From assembly GCA_024103215.1 (NCBI GenBank), contig JAGFIY010000155.1:1-32480 (forward strand): 32,480 nucleotides of DNA, written 5' to 3'. The notes below the pieces were generated by a model. It was not told the DNA's origin, searched no databases, and worked only from the letters and a program-made list of their open reading frames with translations. The stretch comes from Melioribacteraceae bacterium (GTDB lineage: Bacteria > Bacteroidota > Ignavibacteria > Ignavibacteriales > Melioribacteraceae). Made by a program: the position numbers and the translations under genes. Shown here piece by piece: positions 4,985-31,042 of the stretch (the first letter of the stretch is position 1; every line of letters begins with the position of its first letter).

Positions 4985-6151
4985 ATGAATAATTTTATAA
5001 TTATAGTTTTAGACGGTGTTGGAATCGGTGAAATGCCGGACGCAGATAAATATGGGGACAAAGGAAGCAACACTCTCGGAAACATTGCAAAAAAGTTTGG
5101 GGGATTAAATTTACCCAATTTACATTCGATGGGATTGGGAAACATCACTTCAATTGAAGGTTTTGACCCGGTTGATAATCCAACTGCTTCCTTCGGAAAA
5201 ATGGCTGAAACTGCAAAAGGAAAAGATTCAACTTCAGGACATTGGGAAATTGGCGGATTAAAAGTCGATATCGATTTTCCTTATTATCCAAAAGGTTTCC
5301 CGGAAGAAATTATCTCCAAGTTTGTTGAACTGACAGGAGTTCCGGGGATACTCGGAAACATTCCGGCATCCGGTACGGAAATTATTAAGGAACTTGGATC
5401 CGAACATATCAAAACGAAAAAACCAATTGTATACACTTCTGCAGATTCTGTTTTCCAAATAGCAGCTCACGAAGAAATAATTCCTTTAAAAGAACTCTAT
5501 AGAATTTGTTTGATTGCAAGGAATGAAGTTCTAGTTGGGAAACATTCAGTTGGAAGAGTTATTGCTCGTCCGTTTTTAGGAACCGACGGGAATTTCGAGC
5601 GCACAACAAACCGAAAAGATTTTTCTATCGATCCAATTAAACCTACAATCTTAGATTATCTTCATAAGAACGAGATCAAAACAATTGCAATCGGAAAGGT
5701 AAACGATCTTTTCAACTATCGAGGAATAGAAGTTAACATAAAAACTAAATCCAATGCGGAAGGCATAAATGCATTAGTGAATCAAATTTCTGTCAATTCT
5801 AACACATTTATTTTTTCAAACCTTGTAGATTTTGATGTTTATTTCGGTCATAGGAACGATCCAGCAGGATTTCATAAAGCACTTAAGGAATTTGATTCTG
5901 CACTTCCGGATATTCTTAACAAATTAGATAATTCTGATATTTTAATCATAACTGCCGATCATGGAAACGATCCAACTACCAAAAGTACCGACCATAGCCG
6001 CGAGTTTGTTCCATTACTTTGTTTTAAGAAAAACTCTACCGGAAAAAATTTGGGAATACGAAAAACCTTTGCTGATGTTGCCCAATCAGCCGCTGAATTC
6101 TTTAAAGTGAATAATGATCTTAAAGGCACAAGTTTTCTCCCCGAATTGTAA
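4985..6151 (+). CDS. deoB: Phosphopentomutase
   Basis: Alkaline-phosphatase-superfamily enzyme that interconverts (deoxy)ribose 1-phosphate and 5-phosphate in nucleoside salvage. The 388-aa length is normal. Metal-site motifs are visible: LDGVGIGEMPDA at the N-terminus, DFDVYFGHRNDPAGF in the middle, and TADHGNDP with TDHSREFVPLL near the C-terminus. The phospho-acceptor loop reads KDSTSGHWE, where many family members have Thr at the first Ser. It follows the GAF protein by six bases and is probably co-transcribed with it. No deoxyribose-phosphate aldolase or nucleoside phosphorylase gene is nearby in the window. The two microcompartment proteins begin 157 bases downstream. Confidence 0.95.
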   Translation: MNNFIIIVLDGVGIGEMPDADKYGDKGSNTLGNIAKKFGGLNLPNLHSMGLGNITSIEGFDPVDNPTASFGKMAETAKGKDSTSGHWEIGGLKVDIDFPYYPKGFPEEIISKFVELTGVPGILGNIPASGTEIIKELGSEHIKTKKPIVYTSADSVFQIAAHEEIIPLKELYRICLIARNEVLVGKHSVGRVIARPFLGTDGNFERTTNRKDFSIDPIKPTILDYLHKNEIKTIAIGKVNDLFNYRGIEVNIKTKSNAEGINALVNQISVNSNTFIFSNLVDFDVYFGHRNDPAGFHKALKEFDSALPDILNKLDNSDILIITADHGNDPTTKSTDHSREFVPLLCFKKNSTGKNLGIRKTFADVAQSAAEFFKVNNDLKGTSFLPEL

Positions 6152-6308
6152 AATCAATTAATATTAAACTTAAAAAAATATTTTTAGAAACACGTCCTTC
6201 TGACTATATTTATCGGGTTAGATCAAAAGTTGAAAACAATGATTCCTTCTACTTGTTAAGTAGTCACATTTAATATATTTTTAGAACGAATTTTTTTTGA
6301 GGTGCAAT
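6152..6308 (+). promoter_or_regulatory. Non-coding gap with repeats upstream of the EutN pair
   Basis: This AT-rich stretch holds a perfect 6-bp inverted repeat CTACTT-GTT-AAGTAG at 6249-6263. It also has a 12-base direct repeat (ATATTTTTAGAA) at 6178-6189 and 6275-6286. A weak Bacteroidetes-like -7 element, TATATTTA, lies at 6205-6212. A GAGG Shine-Dalgarno at 6299-6302 serves the TTG start at 6309. Together these suggest that the promoter and possibly an operator for the EutN-rpoD run lie here. Simple A/T richness makes chance repeats likely, so the regulatory reading is tentative. Confidence 0.35.
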
Positions 6309-6608
6309 TTGATATTAGGCAAAGTTATCGGAACTGTTTGGTCAACAAGAAAAGACGAAAATCTCGTCGGCGCAAAATTTTTGATAGTTCAGCAGCTTAA
6401 ACTGGATTATTCACCAAAAGACAATTTTGTTGTTGCTGTTGATTCAGTCGGTGCTGGAGTAAGCGAAGTTGTATTAGTGGCTCAGGGGAGTTCGGCACGG
6501 CAAACAACGTTTACCAAAAACAAACCTGTTGATGCAGTTATAATGGCAATAGTTGATAAACTCGATATTTCCGTTAAAGAAAAATTATCTGCAATGGTTT
6601 CTGAATAA
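6309..6608 (+). CDS. EutN/CcmL family microcompartment vertex protein (first copy)
   Basis: A 99-aa member of the pentameric BMC-P (EutN/CcmL/PduN) family, which in known systems caps the vertices of bacterial microcompartment shells. Family hallmarks are LGKVIGTVWSTRKDENLVG at the N-terminus, VAVDSVGAGVSEVVLV in the middle and the GSSAR loop. One usual glycine (GxGE) is serine here. I chose TTG 6309 because GAGG at 6299-6302 is properly spaced and the family starts at this residue; an earlier in-frame TTG at 6297 is less likely. Its stop overlaps the next gene by one base. No BMC-H or BMC-T hexamer or encapsulated enzyme gene is in the window, so what it assembles with is unknown. Confidence 0.87.
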   Translation: MILGKVIGTVWSTRKDENLVGAKFLIVQQLKLDYSPKDNFVVAVDSVGAGVSEVVLVAQGSSARQTTFTKNKPVDAVIMAIVDKLDISVKEKLSAMVSE

Positions 6609-6880
6609 TGAGATTCGGTAAGGTAATAGGGACAATTTGGGCAACGAGAAAATATGAAGCATTAAATTCATATAAGTTACAACTTGTTCAACCCATGAAT
6701 GCGAATCAAGAAAATCTTGGAGAACCAATAATTGCGGTTGATACTGCCGGTGCTGGTCCGGGAGAGTTTATTTTTTATATAACATCCAGCGAAGCTGTTA
6801 TTCCAATGGATGTTGATATGGCTCCTGTAGATGCGGCAATTGTCGGTATTATTGATTCTACGAGTACAGAAATTAATTAA
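6608..6880 (+). CDS. EutN/CcmL family microcompartment vertex protein (second copy, divergent)
   Basis: A 90-aa paralogue of the preceding gene, starting in a TAATG overlap and so probably translationally coupled. It keeps the N-terminal FGKVIGTIWATRKYEAL and the central AVDTAGAGPGEFIF, but the GSSAR loop is replaced by TSSEAV. In BMC-P pentamers that region lies near the five-fold pore, so the two copies may differ in pore or partner. It ends 12 bases before the sigma factor gene, with a GGAG motif right after its stop codon, which suggests one operon with rpoD. The function is inferred from family only. Confidence 0.85.
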   Translation: MRFGKVIGTIWATRKYEALNSYKLQLVQPMNANQENLGEPIIAVDTAGAGPGEFIFYITSSEAVIPMDVDMAPVDAAIVGIIDSTSTEIN

Positions 6881-6892
6881 GGAGATTACCGA

Positions 6893-7747
6893 TTGAAAAT
6901 CACAAAACAATACACAAACCGTGAAAGTCAATCACTCGATAAATATCTTCAAGAAATAGGTAAAGTTGATCTACTTACTCCGGAACAAGAAATAGAGTTT
7001 GCAGTCAGGATCCGCAAGGGTGATCAAGTTGCACTTGAAAAATTGGTTAAAGCTAATCTCCGATTTGTGGTAAGCGTGGCTAAGCAGTATCAAAATCAAG
7101 GATTGACTTTAGGTGATTTGATAAACGAAGGCAATTTGGGATTAATAAAAGCCGCAAAAAGATTTGACGAAACGAGAGGTTTTAAATTTATATCCTATGC
7201 AGTTTGGTGGATTCGTCAATCTATACTCCAAGCTCTTGCTGAACAGTCAAGAATTGTGAGGCTGCCATTGAATAGAGTTGGTGCACTGAACAAAATCGGC
7301 AGAGCTTACAGCAATCTGGAACAGGAGTATGAACGTGAACCGACTGCCTCTGAATTGGCGAAAGAACTTGATATGGATGTGGATGAAGTTGCGGAAGCAC
7401 TAAAAATTTCGGGAAGGCACATTTCGGTTGACGCTCCTTTTTCACAAGGTGAAGAAAATAGATTACTTGATGTTTTGCAAAATGAAGAACAACCTTCACC
7501 GGATTATGGGCTAATGTCGCTTTCGCTTCAAAATGATATTGAACGTGCTCTATCTACACTTACAGAAAGAGAAGCTGAAGTGATAAAATTGTACTTCGGT
7601 CTAAATAAAGAACATTCTTTAACTCTTGAAGAAATTGGTGAAAAATTTAATCTAACAAGAGAGCGTGTCCGTCAGATAAAAGAAAAAGCAATCAGAAGGT
7701 TACGTCATGCTTCTCGCAGCAGAAACTTAAGAACCTACTTAGGTTAA
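6893..7747 (+). CDS. rpoD: RNA polymerase primary sigma factor (RpoD/SigA)
   Basis: A 284-aa sigma-70 family factor directing RNA polymerase to housekeeping promoters. It starts at TTG 6893 behind AAGGAG at 6879-6884. Region 1.2 contains [20 protein letters not shown]. Region 2 contains [35 protein letters not shown] and the promoter-melting segment [13 protein letters not shown]. Region 3 contains the [12 protein letters not shown] motif. Region 4 has [30 protein letters not shown]. Region 1.1 is absent, which is normal for the primary sigma of the Bacteroidetes-Chlorobi group and a main reason for my taxonomic placement. The gene lies directly after the two EutN genes and eight bases before an NlpC/P60 lipoprotein gene. 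Confidence 0.96.
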
Positions 7748-30043: not shown

Positions 30044-30526
30044 ATGTCAGTTAATATTGGTGATATAGCCCCGGATTTTTCACTAAAAAGTGAAGCTTTG
30101 GAAGAAATCACATTAAGCAGTTTCCGAGGCAAGAAAAATGTTGTTTTACTCTTTTTCCCATTTGCAAATTCAGGAACTTGTGAAAAAGAATTATGTACCA
30201 TGCGGGACGGAATGAGTGCCTACGAAAATTTAGATGCTCAAGTTTTAGCAGTAAGTGTTGATAGTTATTTTACACATAAACTTTGGGCAGATCAGCAGAA
30301 ATTTAATTTTCCGTTGTTGAGTGATTTCAATAAGGAAGTCTGTAAGAAGTATGATTCCTATATGGATGTTTTTGCTCCGGGTAAATTTGATTACAAAGGA
30401 GTTGCAAAACGTGCAGCTTTTGTGATCGATAAAGAGGGTAAAATTCAATATGCGGAAATTTTACCAAGTCCGGGAGACGAACCTAATTATGAAGCAATCA
30501 AAGAATCATTAGAGAAATTAGACTAA
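30044..30526 (+). CDS. Peroxiredoxin of the AhpC/TSA family (AhpE/Bcp-like)
   Basis: A 160-aa thiol peroxidase of the thioredoxin fold. The active site reads FPFANSGTCEKELCTMRD: the probable peroxidatic Cys46 follows Pro39 and a Ser43 in place of the usual Thr. A second cysteine, Cys51, lies five residues on, as in atypical two-cysteine Bcp/PrxQ types. A further Cys is in NKEVCKKYDSY. The N-terminus GDIAPDFSL and the late AAFVIDKEGKI segment are standard. It shares a transcription unit with dodecin, has AAGGAG before its ATG, and ends at a terminator. The electron donor is unknown. Confidence 0.92.
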   Translation: MSVNIGDIAPDFSLKSEALEEITLSSFRGKKNVVLLFFPFANSGTCEKELCTMRDGMSAYENLDAQVLAVSVDSYFTHKLWADQQKFNFPLLSDFNKEVCKKYDSYMDVFAPGKFDYKGVAKRAAFVIDKEGKIQYAEILPSPGDEPNYEAIKESLEKLD

Positions 30527-30552: not shown

Positions 30553-30574
30553 ATTTAATTCTCAAGGAGATATG

Positions 30575-31042
30575 ATGTTGAAAGTTGGTCAAAAAGCACC
30601 TCAATTTACTTTGCCGAATCAGGATGGAAATAAGATATCATTAAAAGATTATCTTGGGAAAGTTGTCGTGTTATATTTTTATCCCAAAGATATGACTTCG
30701 GGATGTACAAAGGAAGCATGTGATTTCAGAGACGAGTTCCCAAACTTCAAAAAATTAAAAGCAGAGGTTATAGGAATAAGCAAAGATTCTGTTAAGTCGC
30801 ATCAAAAGTTCATCGAAAAAAATAACCTACCTTTTACCTTGTTGAGCGACGAAGAAAAGAAAGTTTTAGAAAAATATGATGTTTGGAAAGAGAAAAGTAT
30901 GTATGGTAAAAAATATATGGGGATAGAAAGAACAACTTTTCTTATAGATGAAAATGGTAAAATAATCAAAATTTATCCGAAGGTTAAAGTAAACGGTCAT
31001 GCTGAAAACATTTTAAAAGACTTGAAGGAACTTTATAAATAA
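30575..31042 (+). CDS. bcp: Thioredoxin-dependent thiol peroxidase (Bcp/PrxQ)
   Basis: A 155-aa Bcp-type peroxiredoxin reducing hydrogen peroxide and organic peroxides with thioredoxin. The active site [18 protein letters not shown] gives Cys44 and Cys49 with the Cys-x4-Cys spacing of PrxQ enzymes; [15 protein letters not shown] begins the protein and [13 protein letters not shown] lies near the end. ATG 30575 is preferred over ATG 30572 because AAGGAGA at 30564-30570 is better spaced. Its TAA overlaps the ATG of the PTPS gene by one base, so it is probably translated in the same unit as the pterin genes, an unusual pairing. Confidence 0.93.

Follow-up and report, generated by a model that had tools for sequence, protein, structure and literature searches.

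Two adjacent genes for microcompartment vertex proteins (BMC-P), here called P1 and P2, stand between deoB and a sigma factor gene in the genome of a Melioribacteraceae bacterium, which raises the question of what vertex proteins do in such a neighborhood: whether they belong to a compartment encoded elsewhere, serve their neighbors, or are left over from a compartment that was lost. The window, by which we mean the whole stretch of DNA that was analyzed (32,480 nucleotides), holds the following features around the pair.

4985..6151, + strand: deoB, phosphopentomutase (TIGR01696, 470.4 bits; cut-off 341.2)
6152..6308, + strand: gap between deoB and P1, 157 bases; possible site of a promoter for P1, P2 and rpoD
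6309..6608, + strand: P1, predicted BMC-P vertex protein of the GSSAR class, 99 aa, TTG start (PF03319, 109.5 bits)
6608..6880, + strand: P2, predicted BMC-P vertex protein in which SSEAV replaces GSSAR, 90 aa (PF03319, 96.6 bits)
6893..7747, + strand: RpoD-family sigma factor, 284 aa, TTG start, 12 bases after P2
7756..8451, + strand: lipoprotein, in part NlpC/P60-like (by eye); it follows rpoD in relatives too

The coordinates confirm the layout that an earlier note on this DNA had described, with a one-base overlap, a sigma factor gene 12 bases on and deoB upstream: P1, whose TTG start at 6309 is preceded by a Shine–Dalgarno-like GAGGTG, stops at 6608, and P2 runs from the ATG at 6608 to the TAA at 6880, one base being common to the P1 stop. 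Both proteins are full-length domain matches to PF03319, for which the cut-off is 25 bits. By sequence comparison, the solved chain nearest to P1 is 5v74 from a Haliangium shell (E 2.6e-23) and that nearest to P2 is 4i7a (E 1.9e-11); a single-chain model of P2, modestly confident at a mean pLDDT of 69.3, matches 4i7a, CcmL and EutN chains with a TM of ~0.7 and a best E of 1.8e-5. These comparisons, in which the BMC-P fold is assigned to P2 by the model and to P1 by sequence, point to pentameric vertex proteins. A chance origin of the observation is excluded by the profile scores and by the conservation in relatives described below. Reading the frames of the window revealed no further shell gene, and no genome-wide shell match is placed there, so that the earlier remark that no hexameric shell gene is visible here was borne out for the window itself.

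The sigma factor that follows P2 is RpoD-like and scores under the RpoD equivalog cut-offs. In 11 of 13 related genomes searched, the genome of the window being outside this search, two RpoD-family sigma genes were found at E <= 1e-90; the copy after P2 is likely the primary sigma factor, and P1, P2 and rpoD are probably in the same operon. Sigma-70-like promoter matches between 6100 and 6950 are no more frequent than in shuffles, and no Rfam family matches in the window. Many relatives (L068, L069 and L077 among them) possess a PIN-domain-like gene of ~130 aa between deoB and P1 that is absent from the window; in some it has a small partner gene, and this arrangement, named by eye, is a possible toxin–antitoxin remnant.

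The phylogeny of the vertex proteins places P1 and P2 apart. A tree built from 70 BMC-P sequences resolves P1, P2 and a third vertex protein of the relatives, P3, as one clade each (support 97/92, 98/94 and 95/93), the P1 clade comprising 21 sequences, and members of BMC-P clusters from compact loci fall beside the P2 clade (three) and the P3 clade (three), in an alignment that has few columns, a bootstrap that has not settled and long branches that meet. The loop distinguishes the classes throughout: GSSAR or GSSSR is found in 21/21 P1 proteins, and ASEAV, SSEAV or SSESV occupies that position in 21/21 P2 proteins. The earlier note was correct that P2 is without the GSSAR loop of P1; its reading of this as a loss did not hold, as the P2 proteins uniformly do without GSSAR and group together in the tree, which marks an old class difference. 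A decaying P1 copy as the origin of P2 is ruled out by the tree and by the uniform P2 loop. Judged on tree and loop, P1 and P2 represent two classes of old divergence within a known BMC-P triplet, which is a feature described for FRAG compartments (Sutter et al. 2021, PMC8217296).

Are there other shell genes for these vertices to join? The genome (3.2 Mb in 186 contigs, 99.88% complete) has two PF03319 matches only, which are P1 and P2, and four PF00936 matches, corresponding to three genes on two other contigs; this genome-wide search for BMC-H and BMC-T genes was one that the earlier note had proposed. Contig C155 carries a BMC-H pair, the second member of which possesses a long C-terminal extension, and contig C87 carries one two-domain BMC-T for which the best NCBIfam match is the PduT-like TIGR02526, under its cut-off. 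The BMC-T adjoins a flavin/Fe-S protein with Complex1_51K, SLBB, Fer4 and RnfC_N parts, which, from this domain order, we take to be PduS-like. The vertex genes are thus not the orphans that they had been called; the alternative offered alongside, that of a satellite shell locus, describes them well, with the BMC-H, BMC-T and PduS-like genes elsewhere and P1 and P2 as the sole BMC-P genes found. A search for PF06130 found no PduL phosphotransacylase in this genome; PduL belongs to the metabolosome core, and its absence counts against the compartment model set out below.

The third vertex gene has a probable explanation for its absence. The PF03319 search did not find P3 in this assembly, and in relatives P3 adjoins dprA in 17/17 P3 loci; contig C98 of the present genome ends 89 bases past dprA (named by eye in both cases), the usual place of P3, and P3 is therefore probably missing from the assembly because the contig ends there. 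A survey of 22 relatives, hand-picked for having BMC-P, returned the same usual set: P1 and P2 joined, with P3 alone, the BMC-H pair and the BMC-T each at a separate place. The BMC-H pair sits beside yqgF in 11/11 loci and before ybbR-tmk in 10/11 (names by eye), and the BMC-T sits beside the PduS-like gene in 10/10, with a short unassigned frame listed between them in two. The surroundings of P3, the BMC-H pair and the BMC-T look like ordinary housekeeping genes. Shell genes are hence found at three places in the genome analyzed here, and at a fourth, that of P3, in relatives.

The second BMC-H merits a separate description. Its C-terminal segment of ~45 residues (L007:10509-10643) is conserved as LNVHxLRxLAR..NFPIKGRxISxANRxEL; comparison with the PDB gave no significant match, and a Rho_N match in 1/15 members (E 0.0042) is a lead only. 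When six BMC-P-negative genomes were checked for PF00936, four still had a BMC-H at the corresponding site, diverged and with the segment intact (L162, L164, L165 and L166); in the remaining two, one BMC-H is cut by a contig end and one genome has no PF00936 match. A function outside the shell is conceivable for this segment.

Conservation of the vertex pair itself was evaluated in 146 related genomes, 123 of which contain PF03319. The order deoB-P1-P2-rpoD was recovered by tblastn in 20/20 relatives, hand-picked for having the pair. A second scan over named records, using P2-specific peptides and a P2 profile that favor P2 orthologues, kept 80 of 156 encoding stretches, 10 of the 20 hand-picked loci recurring among them; here, P1 precedes P2 in 76/76 informative loci, rpoD is next in 79/79, and deoB is upstream in 74/76. 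These synteny counts rest on tblastn, since greedy ORF maps miss some genes. The records are titled Ignavibacteriales, Melioribacteraceae, Ignavibacteriaceae, Bacteroidetes and similar, and include Stygiobacter electus (L246). Pooling both sets (99 loci, duplicates included, with starts taken as aligned to those of the window, which leaves a few odd negative P1–P2 gaps), the P2–rpoD gap is <=30 bases in 98/99 loci and the P1–P2 overlap is exactly one base in 40/99. The conservation in relatives that the earlier note wished to see checked is therefore present.

To read the neighborhood where the pair is missing, the sigma gene was located in 12 BMC-P-negative genomes and in G080, which has one BMC-P match, in a group of many BMC genes away from the sigma site. 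Twenty stretches were read: 11 lie in a ribosomal-gene neighborhood or have a deoB or NlpC neighbor, and 9 hold a second sigma gene; no shell genes lie alongside these nine second RpoD-family copies (L156–L159, for example). At all 10 of the 10 readable sites without the pair (G007, G018, G067, G079, G080, G084, G091, G102, G110 and G113), deoB is followed by rpoD; at an eleventh, in G127, rpoD is present without P1 and P2 and deoB is not in reach. These eleven sites represent all of the searched genomes except G041 and G112. Because it is kept where the pair is absent, the deoB–rpoD neighborhood is independent of the shell genes, and deoB is an old neighbor that is not specific to them.

Contig C98 encodes an acylating acetaldehyde dehydrogenase of 527 aa (TIGR02518, 635.6 bits against a cut-off of 620.1). 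Its C-terminal tail is conserved: in each of the 15 aligned copies, an IE.RL.ARAGN-like segment is joined by a variable linker to a short amphipathic terminus, which is a variant of G.GISE.EI.KII.EF in 15/15, and a sixteenth tailed orthologue (G082) was detected by the tail profile. This layout is encapsulation-like, being the usual one of an encapsulation peptide as defined in PMC8217296. The earlier note had suggested looking for an aldehyde dehydrogenase with such a peptide; this acylating enzyme is a candidate, and with its conserved amphipathic segment at the C-terminus, a putative encapsulation peptide, it is what the core of a metabolosome would contain. In relatives, the dehydrogenase orthologue (identity >=45%, fragments counted, PVM-type dehydrogenases excluded) is found in 104/123 BMC-P-positive and 2/23 BMC-P-negative genomes, as raw counts that ignore kinship. 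The 21 genomes with neither BMC-P nor dehydrogenase are spread over 10 genera, and the two exceptions with the dehydrogenase and without BMC-P are 75% and 87% complete. The link is imperfect, because 19 of the 123 positives are without the orthologue; at least G080 among these has a PVM-like locus only, and others are incomplete. These counts come from a search with the dehydrogenase of this genome; a query made of the first 150 residues of a PVM-type enzyme had given weak matches in 16/23 genomes. The dehydrogenase gene lies <=30 kb from P3 in 11/17 genomes and elsewhere in six. The likely cargo is this acylating dehydrogenase, its sequence carrying a helix that resembles an encapsulation peptide.

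The same tail recurs on a second enzyme. A profile of the encapsulation peptide segment only, run over the fetched loci, matched the extreme end of a class II aldolase in G017 (E 0.015), and three further aldolases of the genus g18 were fetched after frames of ~300 aa had been noticed in those genomes; class II aldolases of g18 carry the dehydrogenase-type tail in 4/4 genomes. A whole-tail profile, searched against 2699 frames from fetched loci, matched the four at E 5.3e-13 to 2.9e-12 (43.8–46.2 bits), compared to a maximum of 14.9 bits for 8000 shuffled tails, and the homology takes in the terminal helix as well as the RLRARAGN segment. After the dehydrogenases and the g18 aldolases, no match is better than E 0.061, and those that follow fall within other proteins or at their start. 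The 41 aldolase frames read, which come from 38 genomes, are all negative except the four of g18; in 25 genomes, that of the window included, the frame ends within 5 residues of the matched part and is thus tailless. In the genome of the window, the aldolase and dehydrogenase genes are ~8 kb apart on C98.

Co-occurrence of the aldolase with the shell failed as proof that it is cargo, since homologues occur in 134/146 relatives and in 20/23 BMC-P-negative ones (18/23 at >=50% identity), and the tail evidence alone was kept. The tail suggests that the aldolase is the aldehyde source in g18; outside that genus this is conjectural, because homologues are found regardless of shell genes. As to substrate, the aldolase stays below the cut-off of each of the 25 NCBIfam models listed, and its PDB relatives are fuculose-phosphate-type aldolases. 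Salvage of 5-deoxyribose, described in other bacteria as yielding dihydroxyacetone phosphate and acetaldehyde (PMC6079011), is one housekeeping route that would fit. Elsewhere among the relatives (L099 in G001, and G070:C3:1281772), an extra BMC-H gene, at a distance from the remaining shell matches, lies directly 5′ of a class II aldolase gene whose product of ~257 aa is extended at its C-terminus.

Of the known systems, FRAG compartments of Ignavibacteriae are the closest, as outlined in Sutter et al. 2021 (PMC8217296): their function is given as unknown, their shell genes lie at several places with few enzymes nearby, and they have a BMC-P triplet, two classes of which are P1 and P2 here, while the third occurs in relatives at a place that lies past a contig end in this genome. 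The compartment proposed for P1 and P2 fits this description. The passages of that paper on FRAG, its supplementary data aside, make no mention of the deoB-P1-P2-rpoD site, of sites without the pair, or of a tail that a dehydrogenase and an aldolase have in common. For Melioribacter roseus, seven BMC-P genes over five loci are listed by Axen et al. 2014 (PMC4207490). PVM and PVM-like compartments are similar in having BMC-P paralogues, an acylating dehydrogenase and a class II aldolase with a C-terminal extension, as in L057 and L059 of relatives; they differ in that the genome analyzed here has no compact locus, no PduL, one PF00596 match and no place with both BMC-H and BMC-P. The PVM-like dehydrogenase passes PRK15398, whereas that of the dispersed set passes TIGR02518, and the tail is C-terminal in the latter versus N-terminal in the PVM-like compact locus (by eye). 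In some relatives such compact loci coexist with the scattered shell set; L057 and L059 contain, by eye, several BMC-P genes, PduL-like, acetate kinase-like and LutB/LutC-like genes and a class II aldolase. The ACI compartments of Acidobacteria, as described in PMC8217296, share a BMC-P triplet, a class II aldolase with a C-terminal encapsulation peptide and a dehydrogenase away from the shell locus, but have a main locus and belong to another phylum; this likeness is drawn without a comparison of the dehydrogenases. The BMC-T and its PduS-like neighbor recall PduT-PduS of the propanediol compartment, except that no diol dehydratase lies near the pair (by eye) and cobalamin reduction is not indicated.

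Taken together, a model for the vertex pair emerges. With good probability, P1 and P2 belong to a FRAG-type microcompartment and account for two of its three vertex proteins; its genes occupy conserved sites scattered among housekeeping operons, and it probably holds an aldehyde-processing enzyme. Pentamers of P1 and P2 would close the corners of a BMC-H/BMC-T shell; the tail would draw the dehydrogenase in, so that aldehyde would be converted to acyl-CoA inside; and the PduT-like BMC-T with the PduS-like protein could pass electrons across the shell, by which NAD+ would be regenerated. The aldehyde might be supplied, at least in one genus, by the class II, fuculose-phosphate-like aldolase with the same tail. 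The place before rpoD would most likely bring steady co-transcription with housekeeping genes, making the compartment constitutive and not induced. A broader proposal, for which we see a little under an even chance, is that a constitutive, housekeeping-embedded FRAG metabolosome of the whole order is driven by the aldolase: a sugar-1-phosphate would be split into dihydroxyacetone phosphate and an aldehyde (possibly acetaldehyde, in 5-deoxyribose salvage), the latter captured in the shell by the tailed dehydrogenase, with the tail of RLRARAGN segment, linker and encapsulation peptide helix as a portable targeting module grafted onto the aldolase in one genus.

The main competitor to an aldolase-driven compartment retains the same shell and takes the aldehyde from ethanol, ethanolamine, threonine or another source, the tailed aldolase being the special case of one genus. 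It is a serious contender, if clearly short of an even chance: the dehydrogenase scores as an acetaldehyde dehydrogenase, the aldolase is widespread irrespective of BMC-P, and among the aldolases read the tail is confined to g18. Against it stand the acquisition of the entire tail by the aldolase in every g18 genome, the proximity of the two genes on C98, and the C-terminal extension, of a sequence different from the g18 tail, on aldolases of PVM-like loci in relatives.

The remaining alternatives dispense with this cargo or with the compartment. SPU compartments process deoxyribose phosphate, and the upstream deoB would suit a compartment of that kind coupled to it, as the earlier note had considered; products of DNA degradation are mentioned in PMC8217296. 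The unchanged deoB–rpoD order at the ten readable sites without the pair led us to reject deoB as a metabolic partner, no deoC was seen by eye in the stretches around the shell genes of this genome, and we hold a deoxyribose compartment to be very unlikely. Decay of a lost compartment, which the scattered genes and the missing P3 could indicate, is more doubtful still, given that open frames and order are kept across two families, that BMC-P and dehydrogenase are mostly present or absent together, that no BMC-T was found in the six BMC-P-negative genomes checked, and that the place of P3 falls off a contig end; the BMC-H remnants that outlast other shell genes in five of those six genomes were counted against the FRAG-type reading. 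Nor was a full locus with its own vertex genes, which the earlier note had named as a sign of a chance remnant, found elsewhere in the genome. Least probable of all is its other suggestion, a role of P1 and P2 in transcription tied to the sigma factor: the close P2–rpoD spacing speaks for it, yet rpoD and its neighbors stay while the pair comes and goes with the aldehyde dehydrogenase, and the sequences of both proteins are those of ordinary BMC-P, as is the predicted fold of P2.

FRAG compartments have been puzzling as shells without obvious cargo, for which the dispersed set offers a concrete, testable cargo and pathway; the candidate rests on the kept gene places, the joint occurrence of the dehydrogenase and the tail shared with the aldolase. 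Stygiobacter electus and Melioribacter roseus, both cultured, are named members of the group. Shell genes that look orphaned amid housekeeping genes can be genuine components of a compartment, and the dehydrogenase tail offers a putative natural targeting tag. Apart from the shell genes, the window carries two tandem adjoining peroxiredoxin-like (AhpC/BCP) genes, named by eye, at 30044-30526 and 30572-31042.
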